A stretch of DNA of 64,000 nucleotides from Veillonella parvula (lineage in GTDB: Bacteria; Bacillota; Negativicutes; Veillonellales; Veillonellaceae): positions 1,841,001 through 1,905,000 of the forward strand of contig NZ_CP138632.1 of the NCBI RefSeq assembly GCF_036456085.1, given 5' to 3'. The notes below the pieces were generated by a model that was not told the DNA's origin, ran no database searches, and worked only from the letters and a program-made list of their open reading frames with translations. The first letter of the stretch is position 1. Every line of letters starts with the position of its first letter. Of this stretch, positions 24,141-49,350 are shown piece by piece. The position numbers were made by a program, and so were the translations under genes.

Positions 24141-24182
24141 GAGCATATTTTTTGTTAGTTTCCAAAAGGTTTCTTATAAAGT

Positions 24183-24260
24183 CAACATTAGAATTCAACA
24201 TTAGAATACAGAATTAGAATACAACATTAGAATACAAGATTAGAGTACAACATTAGAATG
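24183..24260 (+). repeat. Six tandem 13-bp repeats downstream of mntH
   Basis: Six contiguous 13-bp units of consensus CAACATTAGAATA occupy 24183-24260, with units 3 and 5 most diverged (CAGAATTAGAATA, CAAGATTAGAGTA). There are no spacers, so it is a minisatellite and not a CRISPR. It lies between the mntH stop and its terminator, so it is transcribed. Confidence 0.85.
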
Positions 24261-24261
24261 C

Positions 24262-24287
24262 AAAGGACCGCTATGGCGGTCCTTTTG
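24262..24287 (+). terminator. Terminator after mntH
   Basis: AAAGGACCGC (24262-24271) pairs with GCGGTCCTTT (24276-24285), then TTG. The stem follows the repeat array directly. Confidence 0.85.
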
Positions 24288-25793: not shown

Positions 25794-26912
25794 TTGCAAG
25801 TGCAAGACATTCTTGCAAAAGACCTCGTCGGCGATGAATGGCTGACCGAGGAGGAATTGCGATTTCTCATGTCTGTAACTGATGAAGAACAGTTGCAGTT
25901 GATATATAAAAAGGCCTACGAAGTGAAGGCAAAATACGTAAAGCCTGTAGCATACTATCGCGGCCTCATCGAGTTCTCAAACCGATGCATTAAGAATTGT
26001 AATTACTGCGGTATCCGCCGAGAAAACGATAAGGCGGAACGCTTTGATATGAATCGCGAAGACATTATCAAGATGGCGCAGTGGGCATACGACCATGAAT
26101 ATGGTTCCATTACACTCCAATCTGGTGAACGCTGTGATGATGCCTTTGTAGACTATGTTGTGGATTTAATTCGTGACATTAAAGCCATTGGTGATGGTTC
26201 TCTTGGCATAACGATATGTGTAGGGGAACAAAGCGAAGAGGCGTACCGCCGCATGCGTGAAGCCGGTGCGAGTCGTTATTTATTACGCATTGAAACAACT
26301 AATACAGATTTATACCATAAAATTCATCCTCGTGATGAATTGCACTCCTTTGAGACGCGCGTAGAATGTTTACGTCGTTTGCGCCGCGTAGGCTTTCAAG
26401 TTGGCACAGGCGTTATGATTGGCCTACCCGGTCAAACAGAAGATGATCTCGTAAATGATATCTTGTTCTATCGAGATATGGATATCGATATGATCGGCAT
26501 GGGGCCTTATGTGGTGCATCACGATACGCCACTAGGTCAAGAAGCATTGGCGATGGGTATTGATGACGAAGCAGGTAAATTGCGCCGCGTTCAATTGGGG
26601 CTCAAGATGATTGCGTTGACTCGTTTATTCTTGAAAGACGTAAATATTGCAGCTACGACGGCGTTACAAGCACTAGATAAACTAGGCCGCGAAAAAGGTT
26701 TAGCCGCAGGGGCGAATATCCTTATGCCTATCATCACCATTCCTGAACACCGTGCAAAATATTTGCTATACGATAATAAGCCATGCGTGGACGACAATGC
26801 AGAACAATGTAAAGACTGCTTGACACGCCGCGTAATGTCCATCGGTGATACAGTGGGTTGGAAACAAAATGGGGACTCTAAACACTACGGCAAACGGACG
26901 GGAGAATTTTAG
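25794..26912 (+). CDS. hydE: [FeFe]-hydrogenase maturase HydE, radical SAM
   Basis: 372 residues. The radical-SAM cluster motif is C65-x3-C69-x2-C72 (CIKNCNYCGIR), followed by TLQSGERCDD, the substrate-barrel segments RIETTNTDLYHKIHP and GVMIGLPGQTEDDL, and MGPYVVHHDTPL, all characteristic of HydE. A C-terminal Cys cluster (CVDDNAEQCKDCLTRR) may bind an auxiliary cluster. The start is TTG 25794, with AGGAAG at 25781-25786; an in-frame GTG at 25800 is further from that site. HydF, HydG and a hydrogenase are not in the window, so maturation partners must lie elsewhere. The last codons lie in the arm of a long palindrome. Confidence 0.88.
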   Translation: MQVQDILAKDLVGDEWLTEEELRFLMSVTDEEQLQLIYKKAYEVKAKYVKPVAYYRGLIEFSNRCIKNCNYCGIRRENDKAERFDMNREDIIKMAQWAYDHEYGSITLQSGERCDDAFVDYVVDLIRDIKAIGDGSLGITICVGEQSEEAYRRMREAGASRYLLRIETTNTDLYHKIHPRDELHSFETRVECLRRLRRVGFQVGTGVMIGLPGQTEDDLVNDILFYRDMDIDMIGMGPYVVHHDTPLGQEALAMGIDDEAGKLRRVQLGLKMIALTRLFLKDVNIAATTALQALDKLGREKGLAAGANILMPIITIPEHRAKYLLYDNKPCVDDNAEQCKDCLTRRVMSIGDTVGWKQNGDSKHYGKRTGEF

Positions 26913-27186
26913 TATTCTATGTTCGAACTAAATTATTTAGTTGACTATATCTTTGTCCTTAGTATTGCCTATATATAGATGGGGCCCCGTTACATAGCGA
27001 CAACTTAATTAGAAAAGACGGTCTATACTTGCTTGCTCCTCGTTCCTGATGTCGCGGCACAAGTACAGACCGTCTTTTTTATAACTTTGTGAGGGCACTA
27101 GTCCCATCTATATATAGGATATACCGATAAAGTCTTATTAATAATTTAATTAAGTTTAGGATCTACATAGGAATACTAAAATTTTC
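26902..27186. repeat. Long imperfect palindrome (about 285 bp) between hydE and the EF-G-like gene
   Basis: The two halves of the hydE downstream gap mirror each other around about 27044. Paired blocks are 26902-26917 with 27171-27186 (15/16), the 16-mer CCTATATATAGATGGG (26968-26983) with its perfect complement (27103-27118), and 27013-27031 with 27060-27078 (18/19). Less conserved AT-rich sequence lies between. The left arm includes the last three codons and stop of hydE. It may be a MITE-like element or an inverted duplication. Confidence 0.8.
27013..27080. terminator. Strong hairpin at the centre of the hydE-downstream palindrome
   Basis: AAAAGACGGTCTATACTTG (27013-27031) pairs with 27060-27078 (one mismatch), followed by TT. 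It can terminate hydE transcription. The 28-base loop is GC-richer than its surroundings. Confidence 0.8.
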
Positions 27187-27314: not shown

Positions 27315-29381
27315 ATGAAAGAGTACAGTAGTGATAAAATTAGAAACGTTGCTGTTGTTTCCCACGATGGTGCGGGTAAAACAGCTCTTGTTGAATCCTT
27401 GTTGTTAACTTCTGGTGCGGTTGATTTCGTAGGTAAAGGTCAAGATAATAAACATATTATGGACTTTGAACCGGAAGAAATTAAACGTAATGTAACTATT
27501 CAATTGGGCATGGCGCCATGTGAGTGGCATGACCATAAGGTTAACTTCATAGACACTCCAGGCTATAACGAATTCCATGGCGAAGTTCGTGCCGCTTTGC
27601 GTGCTTGTGATGGCATGTTGATGGTGCTATCCTCCACATCTGGTGTAGAAACTGACACAGTTCGCGCATGGGATTATGCAGTTGAATTACAAATGCCTCG
27701 CATGGCATTTATCAATAAAATGGATGTCGATGGTGCTGATTTCTTTGGCACTATTGAAAGAATGCGGGAGTTATTTGGCAAAGGCATTATGCCATTGCAG
27801 ATTCCTATCGGTGAAGGTGCCGATTTTGAAGGCGTTGTAGACGTAGCGAAAATGACTGCGTTTACTTATAAGGACGGCCAACCAACAGAGGTCGCTGTAC
27901 CAGCTCACCTTATCGAAAAGGCTCAAGAAATTCGGGAAATGACCGTAGAAGCCGCGGCTGAAGGTAGCGATGAGTTGTTGGAAAAATATTTAGAAGGCGA
28001 AGAATTATCCTTAGAGGAAATCCGCCAAGGCTTGCGTGAAGGGATGATTAGTGGCCGTGTGTGCCCAATCATGTGTGGCAGTGCCACATCTCGTATTGGC
28101 TTAGATCAAGTATTGGATCGGATGATCCGTTACATGCCGGATGCAACTAAAAAAGTGATGACCGCAACTGATGCGGAAACCGGCGAACAATGTGTTGTAC
28201 ATGTAGATAAACCATTAACTGCATTCGTATTTAAAACATTGTTAGACCCATTCGCAGGCAAACAAAGCTTTGTACGTATCTTCTCTGGTGAACTGAAAGA
28301 AGGCGATCGCCTTTATGATGTAAACCAAGGTGTAGAAGAAAAATGGGGCAAGATGGTTACCCTTATCGGGAAGCAACAAATCCCTGTATCTGCTGCTAAA
28401 GCTGGCGATATCGTAGTGATACCGAAATTGGCCAATGCTAAGACCGGCGATACATTAACGGCTCCTGACTTTAAAGTGACATACGATGCTATTCGTTTCC
28501 CTCAACCTCTATACACTGTGGCTATGGAGCCAGTGAAAAAAGGTGAGGAGGAAAAATTAGCTAGTGCTGTTCTTAAAGTGGCGGAAGAAGATCCTACTTG
28601 CGTAGTAGTGAAAAATGCTGAAGCTCGCCAATTACAAATCGATTGTATGGGTGAAGTACATCTCGAGCATATCCTCAACAAAATGGACCGTAAATACGGC
28701 GTACAAGCTAAACTTGTGGCTCCATATATTCCATACCGCGAAACCATTAAAGGCTCTGCTGAAACCGAGTCTAAGTATAAGAAACAAAGTGGCGGTCATG
28801 GTCAATATGGTCACGTTAAGATTCAAGTGGATCCATTATATGATGGTAGCGAATTTGCATTCGTAGACAAAATTTTTGGTGGTGCTGTACCTAAACAATA
28901 CATACCAGCAGTGGAAAAGGGTGCCAAAGAAACCCTAGATAAAGGCCTAATTGCAGGATATCCTATGATTGGCGTGCAAGTGACACTCTTGGATGGATCT
29001 TACCACAGTGTAGACTCCTCAGAGTTAGCATTTAAAGTAGCTACGTCACAGGCTATCAAGGATGTGATTCCTAAGGCGAAACCAGTCCTATTAGAACCAA
29101 TCTATGAAGTCAACGTGTTTGCACCAGATGCTTTCATGGGCGACATCATGGGTGATTTGAATAGCCGTCGAGGTCGTGTATTAGGCATGGAACAAAGTGA
29201 AAGAACAGGTATTTCCGTTGTTAAAGCACAAGTACCATTGGCTGAAATGTCCGATTATGTGACTGCATTGCGCTCCATTACACAAGGACAAGGCGTATTT
29301 AACCGTCAGTTCTATACCTATGAAGAGGTTCCCCATAAGCAAGCGGAAGAAATTATCGCTGCTCATAAAACCCAAGAATAA
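27315..29381 (+). CDS. Elongation factor G-like GTPase (FusA2 type)
   Basis: 688 residues with all five EF-G domains. GTPase motifs are G1 SHDGAGKT (residues 16-23), G3 DTPGYNEF and G4 NKMD. The G1 loop differs from canonical EF-G (AHIDAGKT), and the switch region has HIMDFEPEEIKRNVTIQLG in place of the usual 'D..EQERGITI'. This marks the divergent EF-G-like group, not the main translocase. Domain IV is recognisable (GSAETESKYKKQSGGHGQYGHVK). No ribosomal genes surround it. It may act in ribosome rescue or stress; that is open. AAGGAGG lies 8 bases before the ATG. Confidence 0.85.
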   Translation: MKEYSSDKIRNVAVVSHDGAGKTALVESLLLTSGAVDFVGKGQDNKHIMDFEPEEIKRNVTIQLGMAPCEWHDHKVNFIDTPGYNEFHGEVRAALRACDGMLMVLSSTSGVETDTVRAWDYAVELQMPRMAFINKMDVDGADFFGTIERMRELFGKGIMPLQIPIGEGADFEGVVDVAKMTAFTYKDGQPTEVAVPAHLIEKAQEIREMTVEAAAEGSDELLEKYLEGEELSLEEIRQGLREGMISGRVCPIMCGSATSRIGLDQVLDRMIRYMPDATKKVMTATDAETGEQCVVHVDKPLTAFVFKTLLDPFAGKQSFVRIFSGELKEGDRLYDVNQGVEEKWGKMVTLIGKQQIPVSAAKAGDIVVIPKLANAKTGDTLTAPDFKVTYDAIRFPQPLYTVAMEPVKKGEEEKLASAVLKVAEEDPTCVVVKNAEARQLQIDCMGEVHLEHILNKMDRKYGVQAKLVAPYIPYRETIKGSAETESKYKKQSGGHGQYGHVKIQVDPLYDGSEFAFVDKIFGGAVPKQYIPAVEKGAKETLDKGLIAGYPMIGVQVTLLDGSYHSVDSSELAFKVATSQAIKDVIPKAKPVLLEPIYEVNVFAPDAFMGDIMGDLNSRRGRVLGMEQSERTGISVVKAQVPLAEMSDYVTALRSITQGQGVFNRQFYTYEEVPHKQAEEIIAAHKTQE

Positions 29382-40149: not shown

Positions 40150-41571
40150 ATGAATAAGCTACTTAAAATTGCAATTATGTTTGCCATTCCTCTGGCAATG
40201 TGGTTCATTACACCGCCAGAAGGTTTGAGCGTTGGAGCTTGGCGACTGCTAGGTTTCTATTTAATGGCTATCGTTGGTCTTGTTGTTAAACCTTGGCCAG
40301 CACCAATTATCTTGTTATTATCTATTGCAGGTTCTGCAATTTTCTTGAATGCTACGAAAAACGTATTGTCTGGCTATGCATCTACCACAGTATGGTTAGT
40401 ATTCTCTGCGTTCTCCCTCAGTGTGGCGTTCGTAAAAACAGGCCTTGGCCGTCGTATTGCGTACCTATTGATTAAATCCTTAGGTCACACTACATTGCGT
40501 CTTGGCTATGTAACTGCTTTATTAGATCTTATTATTTCCCCAGTAACACCTTCCAACACAGCACGTTGTGGCGGTATCGTGTTCCCAATCATGAACTCTG
40601 TAGCAAAAGCGTTAGGTTCTGAGCCTGGTGAAAGCGCTAAAAAAGCTGGTTCTTACCTCATGGTTAACACATACATGGTAACTAAGGTAACAAGCTTGAT
40701 GTTCGCTACAGCAATGGCACCAAACTTATTGGCTGCTGACTACATGAACAAAATCCTCGGTGTAGATATTAACTGGGGCCTTTGGGCATTAGCACTCGTA
40801 GTACCAGGTCTTGTAATGCTTCTCATTACACCTGCTTTGGTATACTACTTAGACAAACCATCTATTCAACACATCGACTCTCATGCGATTGCTGATGAAG
40901 GTTTGAAAGAACTTGGACCTATGTCTGGTCGCGAGAAATCTCTTATTGCTATCTTTATTCTTGCCTTAGTTGGCTGGGCGTTGCCTTCCATCTTGACGCA
41001 AGGCTTTGGCATTAAATTCTCCCTTGATGCAACAGCAGTAGCTATCGTAGCCATGGTAGCAGCGCTTGTAACAGGCGTAATCAAATGGGAAGATATGCTT
41101 GAATCCAAAGGTGCTTGGAACACATTGATCTGGTTCGGTGGTATCATCGGTATGTCCAGTGCGTTGTCCAAGGTTAAATTCTTTGAATGGTTAGCTGACT
41201 TTATGGGGACACACTTCAACTTCGGCGACAACCCGATGTTGGCTCTTATTATCATCGGCGCTATCAGTATCGCTGTTCGTTACTTGTTCGCTTCTGGTAG
41301 TGCGTATGTAGTTGCAATGCTTCCAGTATTCCTTACTGTAGGTAAAGTAGCGGGTGTAAACCCAATGGCGTTGTCCTTGTTACTAGCTGCTACAAACTCC
41401 TACGGTGGTGCGTTGACTCACTACGGCGGTGCAGCGGCTCCAATCGTATTTGGTGCTGGTTACAACACAGTTAAAAGCTGGTGGATTATCGGTGGTATCT
41501 TCGCTATCATGTGCTTCATCGTAAACCTTACAGTGGGCTACGCATGGTGGGAAATTCTTGGTATCCTATAA
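40150..41571 (+). CDS. DASS-family anion transporter, YbhI-like
   Basis: 473 residues, 11 to 13 membrane segments. Both DASS substrate-sodium motifs are present: ISPVTPSNTARCGGIVFPI near residue 135 and LLAATNSYGGALTHYGG near 418. The family (SLC13-related) imports di- and tricarboxylates with sodium or by antiport. Here it most likely brings in the substrate of the hydratase and isomerase genes directly upstream, with which it forms an operon. The precise substrate is unknown. Confidence 0.86.
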   Translation: MNKLLKIAIMFAIPLAMWFITPPEGLSVGAWRLLGFYLMAIVGLVVKPWPAPIILLLSIAGSAIFLNATKNVLSGYASTTVWLVFSAFSLSVAFVKTGLGRRIAYLLIKSLGHTTLRLGYVTALLDLIISPVTPSNTARCGGIVFPIMNSVAKALGSEPGESAKKAGSYLMVNTYMVTKVTSLMFATAMAPNLLAADYMNKILGVDINWGLWALALVVPGLVMLLITPALVYYLDKPSIQHIDSHAIADEGLKELGPMSGREKSLIAIFILALVGWALPSILTQGFGIKFSLDATAVAIVAMVAALVTGVIKWEDMLESKGAWNTLIWFGGIIGMSSALSKVKFFEWLADFMGTHFNFGDNPMLALIIIGAISIAVRYLFASGSAYVVAMLPVFLTVGKVAGVNPMALSLLLAATNSYGGALTHYGGAAAPIVFGAGYNTVKSWWIIGGIFAIMCFIVNLTVGYAWWEILGIL

Positions 41572-47810: not shown

Positions 47811-48026
47811 ACTACAGCCTAATTTATGTATCGAGGGGCTATTTATAAGTCCTAGAACGATAGAGCGGAAATAAGGTCTCTCGGAACTCCAAGTGGCCAC
47901 CCACCCCACTACGTGGGGCCGCCAAGTCGTTCCTTAAGACCTTATTTCCTGCCAACTCAATCTAGGCAGTATCTAATAATAGCCCCTCTAGAATACAGAG
48001 TTTAAACTGTAGTCATATTTTTCTAA
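47799..48026. repeat. Long imperfect palindrome B (about 228 bp) downstream of trpG
   Basis: The halves mirror each other around about 47911. Paired blocks are TTAGAAAAATA (47799-47809) with 48016-48026, GAGGGGCTATT (47833-47843) with 47978-47988, and GGAAATAAGGTCT (47867-47879) with 47937-47949. The left end covers the final trpG codons and stop. The centre (47887-47929) holds a core shared, in the opposite orientation, with palindrome C: CTCCAAGTGGCCAC (47887-47900), hairpin CCCCAC-TAC-GTGGGG, and CGCCAAGTCG (47920-47929). Confidence 0.85.
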
Positions 48027-48081: not shown

Positions 48082-48121
48082 ATTCCCACCTCTTATAAAG
48101 AAATGACCTGTGCGTTACTCC

Positions 48122-48360
48122 ATATAATGCGCAGGATCATTTGGTAATAGTTTGTTTGAGGGATATCTATTAAATTGGTATGATTTTAGCCGGATAGGTG
48201 CGATTGGGTTATGTGCGAAGCCGACTTGGCGCCCCGCATAGCGGGGGGGTGGCCACTTGGAGGCTGAGTGCATGACCCAATCGGTACCGTCTAGGTAGAA
48301 TGGTATTAATTTAATAGATATCCTCAAAAGGAGATATAAATGATTAAAGACGCATTATAT
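48122..48360. repeat. Long imperfect palindrome C (239 bp) spanning the trpD start
   Basis: The mirror axis is at about 48241. Paired blocks are ATATAATGCG (48122-48131) with 48351-48360, GATATCTATTAAATT (48162-48176) with 48308-48322, and CGATTGGGT (48201-48209) with 48275-48283. The right arm contains the trpD ribosome site, start codon and first seven codons. The core is CGACTTGGCG (48222-48231), hairpin CCCCGC-ATA-GCGGGG, then GTGGCCACTTGGAG (48249-48262). The two blocks are identical to those of palindrome B read on the other strand. Confidence 0.85.
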
Positions 48361-49350
48361 GCAGTAACGCACGGTCAGGATTTATCCTACGACCTTGCTA
48401 AAGATACAATGAACAAGATTATGAGCGGTGATGTAGCCGAGGTACCTATGGCAGGTTTCTTATGCGCTTTAGCGGCAAAAGGCCCTACTGTAGATGAGGT
48501 TACAGCCTTTGCTGAGGTTATGCGCGAGAAGGCTGGTTCTGTACCTCATGAAGGTACTGTTGTAGAAATCGTAGGTACTGGCGGGGACGAAGCGAATACG
48601 TTCAACATTTCAACTACATCTGGTTTTATCATTTCCGCTGCAGGTATTCCTGTAGCAAAGCATGGTAACCGCAGTGTATCTAGTAAATGTGGCGCTGCTG
48701 ATTTGATTGAAGCATTGGGCGCTAAGTTAGAGCTTAATGGTGAACAAAATGAGGCAGTCCTCAACAAAGCAAATATGTGCTTCATGTTTGCTCCTGTATA
48801 TCACCAAGCTATGAAATATGCTGGCCCTGTACGTAAAGCGTTAGGTGTTCGTACTGTGTTCAATATTCTCGGACCATTGGCAAATCCAGCAGGTGCTACG
48901 GTTGAGTTGATGGGCGTGTACGATAAATCTTTGGTAGAACCATTGGCTCGCGTATTGGCTAACCTCGGTGTGAAACGTGGTGCTGTGGTACACGGCTTCG
49001 ATGGCCTTGATGAAATTACGGCTACCAACAAAACGTACGTATGTGAAATTAATAATGGTAGTTTCACAAGCTACGAATTCGATCCTAAGGACTATGGTTT
49101 CGAATACGCTGATAAAACTGAGCTTGAAGGTGGCGATGCAACAGTAAATGCTGAGATTACACGCCGTGTTCTCGGTGGTGAACCAGGTGGTAAACGCACA
49201 GCTGTTCTTCTAAACGCTGGTATGGCGATTTACCTTACAAAAGAGGGTATTACATTAGCAGAGGGCATTGAAGAGGCGAAAAACATGATCGACTCTGGCA
49301 AGGCTCTTGCCACCATGGAACAATTTGTGAAAGCAACACAAGAGGTATAA
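48340..49350 (+). CDS. trpD: Anthranilate phosphoribosyltransferase
   Basis: 336 residues, which transfer a phosphoribosyl group from PRPP to anthranilate. The PRPP-binding loop VGTGGDEANTFNISTTSG (near residue 78), KHGNRSVSSKCGAADLIEALG and VFNILGPLANPAG are family hallmarks. AAAGGAG lies 9 bases before the ATG, inside palindrome C. Folding of that palindrome in mRNA would bury the ribosome site, a possible control point. The fused trpCF gene starts 4 bases after its stop. Confidence 0.96.
   Translation: MIKDALYAVTHGQDLSYDLAKDTMNKIMSGDVAEVPMAGFLCALAAKGPTVDEVTAFAEVMREKAGSVPHEGTVVEIVGTGGDEANTFNISTTSGFIISAAGIPVAKHGNRSVSSKCGAADLIEALGAKLELNGEQNEAVLNKANMCFMFAPVYHQAMKYAGPVRKALGVRTVFNILGPLANPAGATVELMGVYDKSLVEPLARVLANLGVKRGAVVHGFDGLDEITATNKTYVCEINNGSFTSYEFDPKDYGFEYADKTELEGGDATVNAEITRRVLGGEPGGKRTAVLLNAGMAIYLTKEGITLAEGIEEAKNMIDSGKALATMEQFVKATQEV

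Follow-up and report, generated by a model that had tools for sequence, protein, structure and literature searches.

The palindrome analyzed here lies behind hydE in a 64,000-nt stretch of the Veillonella parvula genome (contig NZ_CP138632.1, positions 1,841,001 to 1,905,000), which we call the window, and its features are collected in Table 1. The first-pass annotation of the window had described a 285-bp palindrome overlapping the hydE stop codon, and this proved to be real: the stop codon (26910-26912) falls inside the left tip, the tips are complementary at 15 of 16 bases, and the 285-nt stretch is predicted to fold as DNA to -51 kcal/mol, compared to -19.7 (sd 3.5) for shuffled sequences (z -8.9). 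The RNA fold reached -104 (z -9.7), and none of 200 shuffles was as stable with either type of folding. The annotation had also reported a 16-mer perfectly mirrored about 120 bases away; we located CCTATATATAGATGGG at 26968-26983 with its perfect mirror at 27103-27118, 119 nt apart. Its further proposal, that pairing is held in selected islands, was supported by our results, as the islands are present, including an intermediate one (26926-26951/27126-27151) that is 77% complementary, and pairing is kept by changes in both arms.

Table 1. Features of the palindrome behind hydE and of its neighboring genes (positions in the window)
Feature	Positions	Strand	Remarks
hydE, gene reading into the element	25794..26912	+	TIGR03956, 326 bits against a cut-off of 254.6
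Whole palindrome	26902..27186	+	Oriented with the loop reading GCTCC...GTCGC
Outer tip, left	26902..26917	+	Last two codons and stop codon of hydE; 15/16 complementary to 27171-27186
Middle arm, left	26962..26983	+	Carries the mirrored 16-mer; 91% complementary to 27103-27124
Family core	26975..27116	+	Covariance model R1 match, 134.9 bits, E 1.2e-26; by construction (window sequence is in the model), copies outside the model also match
Conserved box GATGGGGCCCC, 5' side	26978..26988	+	Core alignments; by eye in many divergent Veillonella copies
Inner stem, left arm	27013..27031	+	Starts with A tract 27013-27016; 18/19 paired
Loop, 28 nt	27032..27059	+	Conserved GCTCC (27035-27039) and GTCGC (27051-27055)
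Inner stem, right arm	27060..27078	+	18/19 paired with 27013-27031
T tract 3' of stem	27075..27080	+	Together with the 5' A tract, resembles a terminator on either strand
Conserved box GTCCCATC, 3' side, past T tract	27101..27108	+	Core alignments and sequence
Middle arm, right	27103..27124	+	Partner of 26962-26983
Outer tip, right	27171..27186	+	Mirror of the hydE end
Next gene, elongation factor G family	27315..29381	+	NF009381

We found that the hydE palindrome is one copy of a dispersed, multi-copy family of palindromic repeats. BLAST searches with the element showed that its core recurs elsewhere in its own genome and, at E <= 1, matched 13 of the 14 Veillonella genomes, with many short or weak alignments among the matches. 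We made a covariance model of the core from 14 sequences (R1) and applied it to sets of 14, 61 and 300 genomes. At E <= 0.01, R1 matched 13 of the 14 Veillonella genomes, G007 being the one without a match, and at least 12 places in the genome of the window after removal of reverse-strand duplicates. Seventeen of 61 genomes of the order matched, all within the same family, as did 16 of 300 in a sample of the class. The loop pattern TTGCTCC-N(8-22)-GTCGCNGCA occurred at 41 places in 12 of the 14 Veillonella genomes, and the reversed pattern occurred nowhere. These results support the suggestion in the first-pass annotation that the palindrome is another member of a family of palindromes and answer its question about copy number in Veillonella genomes; the opposite outcome, a single-copy sequence with unconserved paired blocks, was looked for and did not occur. 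Rfam gave no match to the element, either for the window at gathering thresholds or for six loci and the gammaproteobacterial locus L281 at E <= 1. Reports of such a repeat family were not found among the titles and abstract openings that searches of open-licence literature brought up, and a hairpin repeat family with a conserved loop and covarying arms is apparently undescribed so far.

R1 was also run across 81 locus sources (L082, L090, L107, L124, L125 and L127 were omitted), and the resulting alignment holds 150 of the 161 matches; early alignments covered fewer loci, and one omitted two spurious matches. The 112 aligned elements represent chosen loci and are an incomplete census. Ninety-nine of them fall in clusters of at least two members, mostly the same locus across species and in some cases neighboring copies. 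Locus clusters number 53, 42 or 34 in the different analyses, which used differing criteria, and they are drawn from related genomes.

Two other large palindromes in the window, B and C (47867-47949 and 48110-48372), have loops that by eye carry CTCC and AAGTCG around a GC-rich stretch, and BLAST matched the region, in whole or in part, in 11 of the 14 Veillonella genomes. The architecture that the annotation described as common to the three palindromes was compared by eye. Neither R1 nor the inner-hairpin model described below (R2) reported the palindromes at 47867-47949 or 48161-48323, in agreement with the earlier statement that the hydE palindrome lacks the core of B and C. We left B and C apart, since the models do not join them to the family, and they are possibly a sister family. 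The window also holds a surprising match on the minus strand (40588-40840) to RF02851, a Yersinia antisense sRNA family (97.6 bits), which is perhaps a conserved coding stretch, and tandem repeats of a 13-bp unit (about CAACATTAGAATA) at 24170-24273 between two open frames.

The family has a regular order. From the outside in, locus-specific arms are followed by the GATGGGGCCC box on the 5' side or the GTCCCATC box on the 3' side, often by a CTACA/TGTAG block inside the boxes, then by an A tract and a stem of about 15-20 bp. In the loop, GCTCC (or GCTCA) and AAAGTCGC (or a closely similar sequence) enclose a variable insert, which spans from a few nt to about 35 nt and by eye can often form a mini-hairpin; the other stem arm and a T tract complete the inner hairpin. 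Stem sequences differ between loci and the loop is conserved; boxes or tracts are missing in some subfamilies. The hydE copy fits this conserved-loop type, with GCTCC/GCTCA and AAAGTCGC held in a covarying stem (R2 match 65.5 bits, E 2.3e-15, the copy being included in the model), and it has the GATGGGGCCC/GTCCCATC boxes flanking the stem, a trait of the Veillonella branch.

We analyzed the pairing of the arms in 20 diverse inner hairpins, and all 18 pairs of the stem changed on both sides, the pairing-preserving substitutions for which the annotation had proposed to look. In these hairpins 91.9% of cells were paired compared to 32-51% in slid controls, with a covariation score of 1.02 compared to 0.24 for shuffled alignments; the 360 cells comprised 183 with the commonest pair, 145 with two-sided changes, 3 with one-sided changes and 29 unpaired. 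Similarly, 87% of cells were paired over the 36 pairs of the 14 cores (slid controls 35-48%; covariation score 0.418, shuffled 0.134), with 94.7% in the inner helix and only 63% in the middle helix. Among 901 pairs from 53 stem clusters, mismatches were G.T in 23 cases and A.C in 29, so that there is no wobble excess, in a count that left out the 3 of 112 elements lacking a recognised motif and placed some clusters in the wrong register. The outer arms are locus-specific. In 17 of 42 clusters their pairing lay above the 99% mark of a cross-locus control; a stricter anchored alignment showed this for only 18 of 112 elements, with a score of 1 for the hydE copy. Both controls include some inflated pairs (maxima 23.5 and 238) and are the stricter for it.

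The history of individual loci was followed in the available stretches. Directly behind hydE, the element is present in genomes G000 and G008, and G011 retains the left part only. There is no element behind hydE in the stretches of G010, G013, G003 and G007, and the remaining genomes have another gene there; in G012 (L130) a gene that resembles a DNA cytosine methyltransferase by eye lies behind hydE at the place of the palindrome. No consistent target-site duplication was seen by eye when hydE sites with and without the element were compared. G010 and G013 have a terminator-like hairpin (by eye) behind hydE in place of the element, suggesting that termination does not need the element. By eye, the hydE-side outer arm is nearly identical between G000 and G008 and the opposite arm has diverged, which suggests that homogenisation of the arms is not complete. 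At a second locus the whole element is present in G008, G012 and G006, G010 retains a half that breaks off within the loop, and nothing but the side with the GATGGGGCC box remains in G000. In G009 the copy at the hcp locus has its core turned round relative to G004, with the flanks on either side still colinear.

The position of the copies is consistent with a role in termination. Of 34 locus clusters, counted with mechanical open frames of at least 90 aa, 27 have a 5' neighboring gene that points into the element, and in 22 of these 27 the two are at most 62 nt apart. Where the flanking genes, also mechanical open frames, run in the same direction, the element is in sense orientation in 19 cases and not in 4 (binomial p 0.0026). 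The flanking genes include hcp, dnaB, glmM, hisJ and bioD. One family member (L209), which has a close relative in L205, lies between rnpA and dnaA as read by eye, near a likely replication origin. In the core alignment an A tract precedes the stem in 12 of 14 rows and a T tract follows it in 11 of the 13 rows that can be read, the 14th row stopping before the tract. The hydE copy has the sequence expected of an intrinsic terminator, a stable stem directly followed by a T tract; a terminator scan restricted to loops of 3-8 nt did not list it, the 28-nt loop being too long for the scan. On account of their position, mostly close behind stop codons, and of the A and T tracts, we infer that the Veillonella copies most likely serve as strong intrinsic terminators in both directions.

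We searched beyond Veillonella with a loop scan of one genome per species (84,980 species), which gave 51 stretches. A stem was present in 11 of them, namely in each of the 10 from Veillonella and in one from a gammaproteobacterial metagenome-assembled genome (G300). The inner-hairpin covariance model, R2, was then applied to six named genomes and, in one class, to 369 genomes. Since bare perfect hairpins of the window score 23 bits with R2 and the reverse strand of the hydE element 27 bits, matches below about 30 bits, which include some of those in the named genomes, were not counted as members. Three genomes of another genus of the Veillonella family had 8, 5 and 7 matches, and G047 had a single weak one. 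In G300 there were 7 matches at E <= 0.1, of which the three inspected carry the loop; one of these has a perfect 23-bp stem a few bases behind what by eye is a stop codon. In the class of G300, 3 of 369 genomes matched at E <= 1e-4, namely G300, G548 (10 matches) and G668 (5); the L281/L443 match arises by construction, as R2 includes L281, which does not apply to the other copies of the three genomes. All 15 copies of G548 and G668 carry the loop or a near variant. Inspection of gammaproteobacterial copies by eye did not reveal the GATGGGGCCC/GTCCCATC boxes, and in G548 and G668 the orientation relative to neighboring frames was mixed (by eye).

The first-pass annotation had raised the possibility that the palindrome is a MITE. 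Our results do not support this for Veillonella, where we found no clean empty site with a target-site duplication and, in a search for PF01797, no associated transposase, and where most elements lie in the multi-member clusters described above. The G548 copies are MITE-like, 95-99 bp long and fully palindromic, with the same type of loop and with shared ends (AGGACTTACG...). Shared terminal inverted repeats occur only in the G548 copies and not in those of Veillonella. Among the 10 G548 copies kept from 13 candidates after duplicate removal, we counted 43 symmetric changes, 14 changes in a single arm and 3 unequal changes in two arms, and nine copies had no consistent duplication of the flanks (by eye). 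G548 also has a palindrome without the loop (L481, 12148-12208), in which two 30-nt arms stand one base apart. Phage and plasmid records had no match to the window element, plasmid records had none to one G548 element, and the exact G548 loop was absent from viral records. A viral scan with a looser loop pattern gave at least 120 stretches, and none of the 80 examined had a stem; two tighter scans gave 5 stretches each, judged to be near chance, with stems tested in a minority.

The symmetric changes, the inversion at the hcp locus, the partial copies, the absence of a wobble preference and the boxes and pairing past the T tract suggest that these repeats are maintained at the DNA level. PMC8604942 describes template switching that homogenises arms and inverts spacers. 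In the explanation that we propose, the DNA would fold back and one arm would serve as the template for the other, and such template switching could account for double changes that are symmetric, for the inversion of a core at its site and for arms mirroring the end of a neighboring gene. Template switching does not conserve a loop, so the loop must do something. We infer that the loop and the GATGGGGCCC/GTCCCATC boxes are under selection and are probably contact sites for a putative factor that would act on the hairpin now, or would have acted when the element spread. Taken as a whole, the proposal of conserved-loop, free-stem repeats that are likely bidirectional terminators, with arms kept complementary mainly by template switching and with the loop and boxes selected, is one for which we consider the balance to be even. 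More tentatively, the repeats may represent a class of foldback DNA elements in at least two phyla, recognised by their loop rather than their ends, whose stems diverge almost always symmetrically by arm-templated copying or repair; we regard this generalization as possible but on the unlikely side.

Compensatory selection could yield the same two-sided changes, and compensatory selection on RNA is the main rival of template switching. The repeats could be structured RNAs at the 3' ends of mRNAs, in which GCUCC/AAAGUCGC would be read by an RNA-binding protein or an RNA and the stems would stay paired through selection alone, an explanation that accommodates the sense orientation behind stop codons, the strong covariation and the conserved loop. 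It does not readily account for G.T mismatches being no commoner than A.C, and these counts lower an RNA-only reading; moreover, the GTCCCATC box and the outer arms past the T tract would be absent from a terminated transcript, and the element has no match in Rfam. We consider structured RNA unlikely, though the likeliest of the rivals.

The elements could also be hairpin sites for recombination or transposition, which an enzyme would recognise as a folded single strand through the loop and by which they would have spread. Integron integrases recognise folded single-strand attC sites in this way. The multi-copy presence is patchy, in genera of the same family and in the three genomes of the gammaproteobacterial class, and the MITE-like copies of G548 point in the same direction. 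Furthermore, neighboring copies converge (+ then -) in 23 of 23 loci that hold at least two of the 112 elements, which by eye correspond to about five independent places, and in G000 palindromes upstream of bioD are separated by 2.4 kb of sequence (L179, 2237-4682) that includes two longer open frames and is not found in the stretch matched from G008. However, convergence is not universal, as shown by a weak extra R1 match in L210 and by two copies in G060 that have the same direction as their neighbors. No associated enzyme was found in a search for PF01797 only, there was no clear target duplication, the Veillonella copies fall largely in multi-species clusters, and the stretches examined from the looser viral scan had no stem. 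We consider a recombination or transposition site improbable.

Mobilization by a Y1 transposase, as for REP/RAYT-type repeats, would agree with palindromic, intergenic units that lie downstream of genes and in opposite orientations, as REPs do in the available text of PMC3733652. It was rejected, since PF01797 does not track the family: this domain has no match in G008 or G001, where R1 gives 20 and 13 matches, and G007, where R1 gives none, has 14 PF01797 matches, many of them fragments. In addition, the stem varies here and not the loop, and we consider this origin highly improbable. Were the region palindromic by chance, an ordinary terminator would explain the A and T tracts, and terminators are common behind genes, but the fold (z -8.9), the loop and boxes conserved across loci and genera, the covariation and the multi-copy R1 matches refute this reading and leave it hardly any probability. 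The intrastrand triplex repeats of PMC4666352 were also set aside, as their motif differs in the available text.

A conserved loop between free arms has implications for how such repeats are found and read. Repeat finders seek conserved sequence, so that repeats with arms that differ by locus are easily missed, and it took the loop and a structure model to bring most of this family into view. A functional RNA is usually regarded as proven by covariation, and the strong covariation found here, without a wobble preference and together with signs of copying at the DNA level, calls for caution. The family is natural material for measuring template switching, and either its loop has a binding partner that can be looked for, or distant bacteria share a recurring terminator design in which a long loop is fixed.

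Several known systems share features with the family. According to the available text of PMC3733652, REP/BIME repeats (the GTAG and CGTC families) are, like the repeats described here, palindromes behind genes and often in opposite pairs; REPs are 20-40 bp long and high-copy, with an unpaired tag at one end. The present repeats differ in having a conserved loop, a free stem, a length of about 100-300 bp and a low copy number, and in not being tracked by the Y1 transposase; inspection by eye for an unpaired GTAG or CGTC tag showed CTACA/TGTAG blocks that stand opposite each other and are paired in part of the copies. ERIC is a single long stem-loop, and stem-loop families of this kind, which are largely intergenic and are defined by profile HMMs as repeated sequences, are expected to have a conserved stem; Veillonella was not found in the available text of that survey (PMC2267715). 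By contrast, the stems of the present family share little sequence between loci. The repeats resemble MITEs in being short, non-coding and palindromic, a likeness that is closest in the G548 copies. MITEs retain their terminal repeats, whereas the outer arms of the Veillonella copies vary by locus and the center is conserved. Integron attC sites have variable stems with conserved structural features, behind stop codons and in one orientation, as here, with conserved boxes at their ends that carry AAC/GTT triplets; the conserved part of the present family is instead the loop. Finally, bidirectional intrinsic terminators have the same A tract, stem, T tract and place behind stop codons, and the family is set apart from them by its conserved loop, 28 nt in the hydE copy, and by the conserved boxes and pairing that continue past the T tract.
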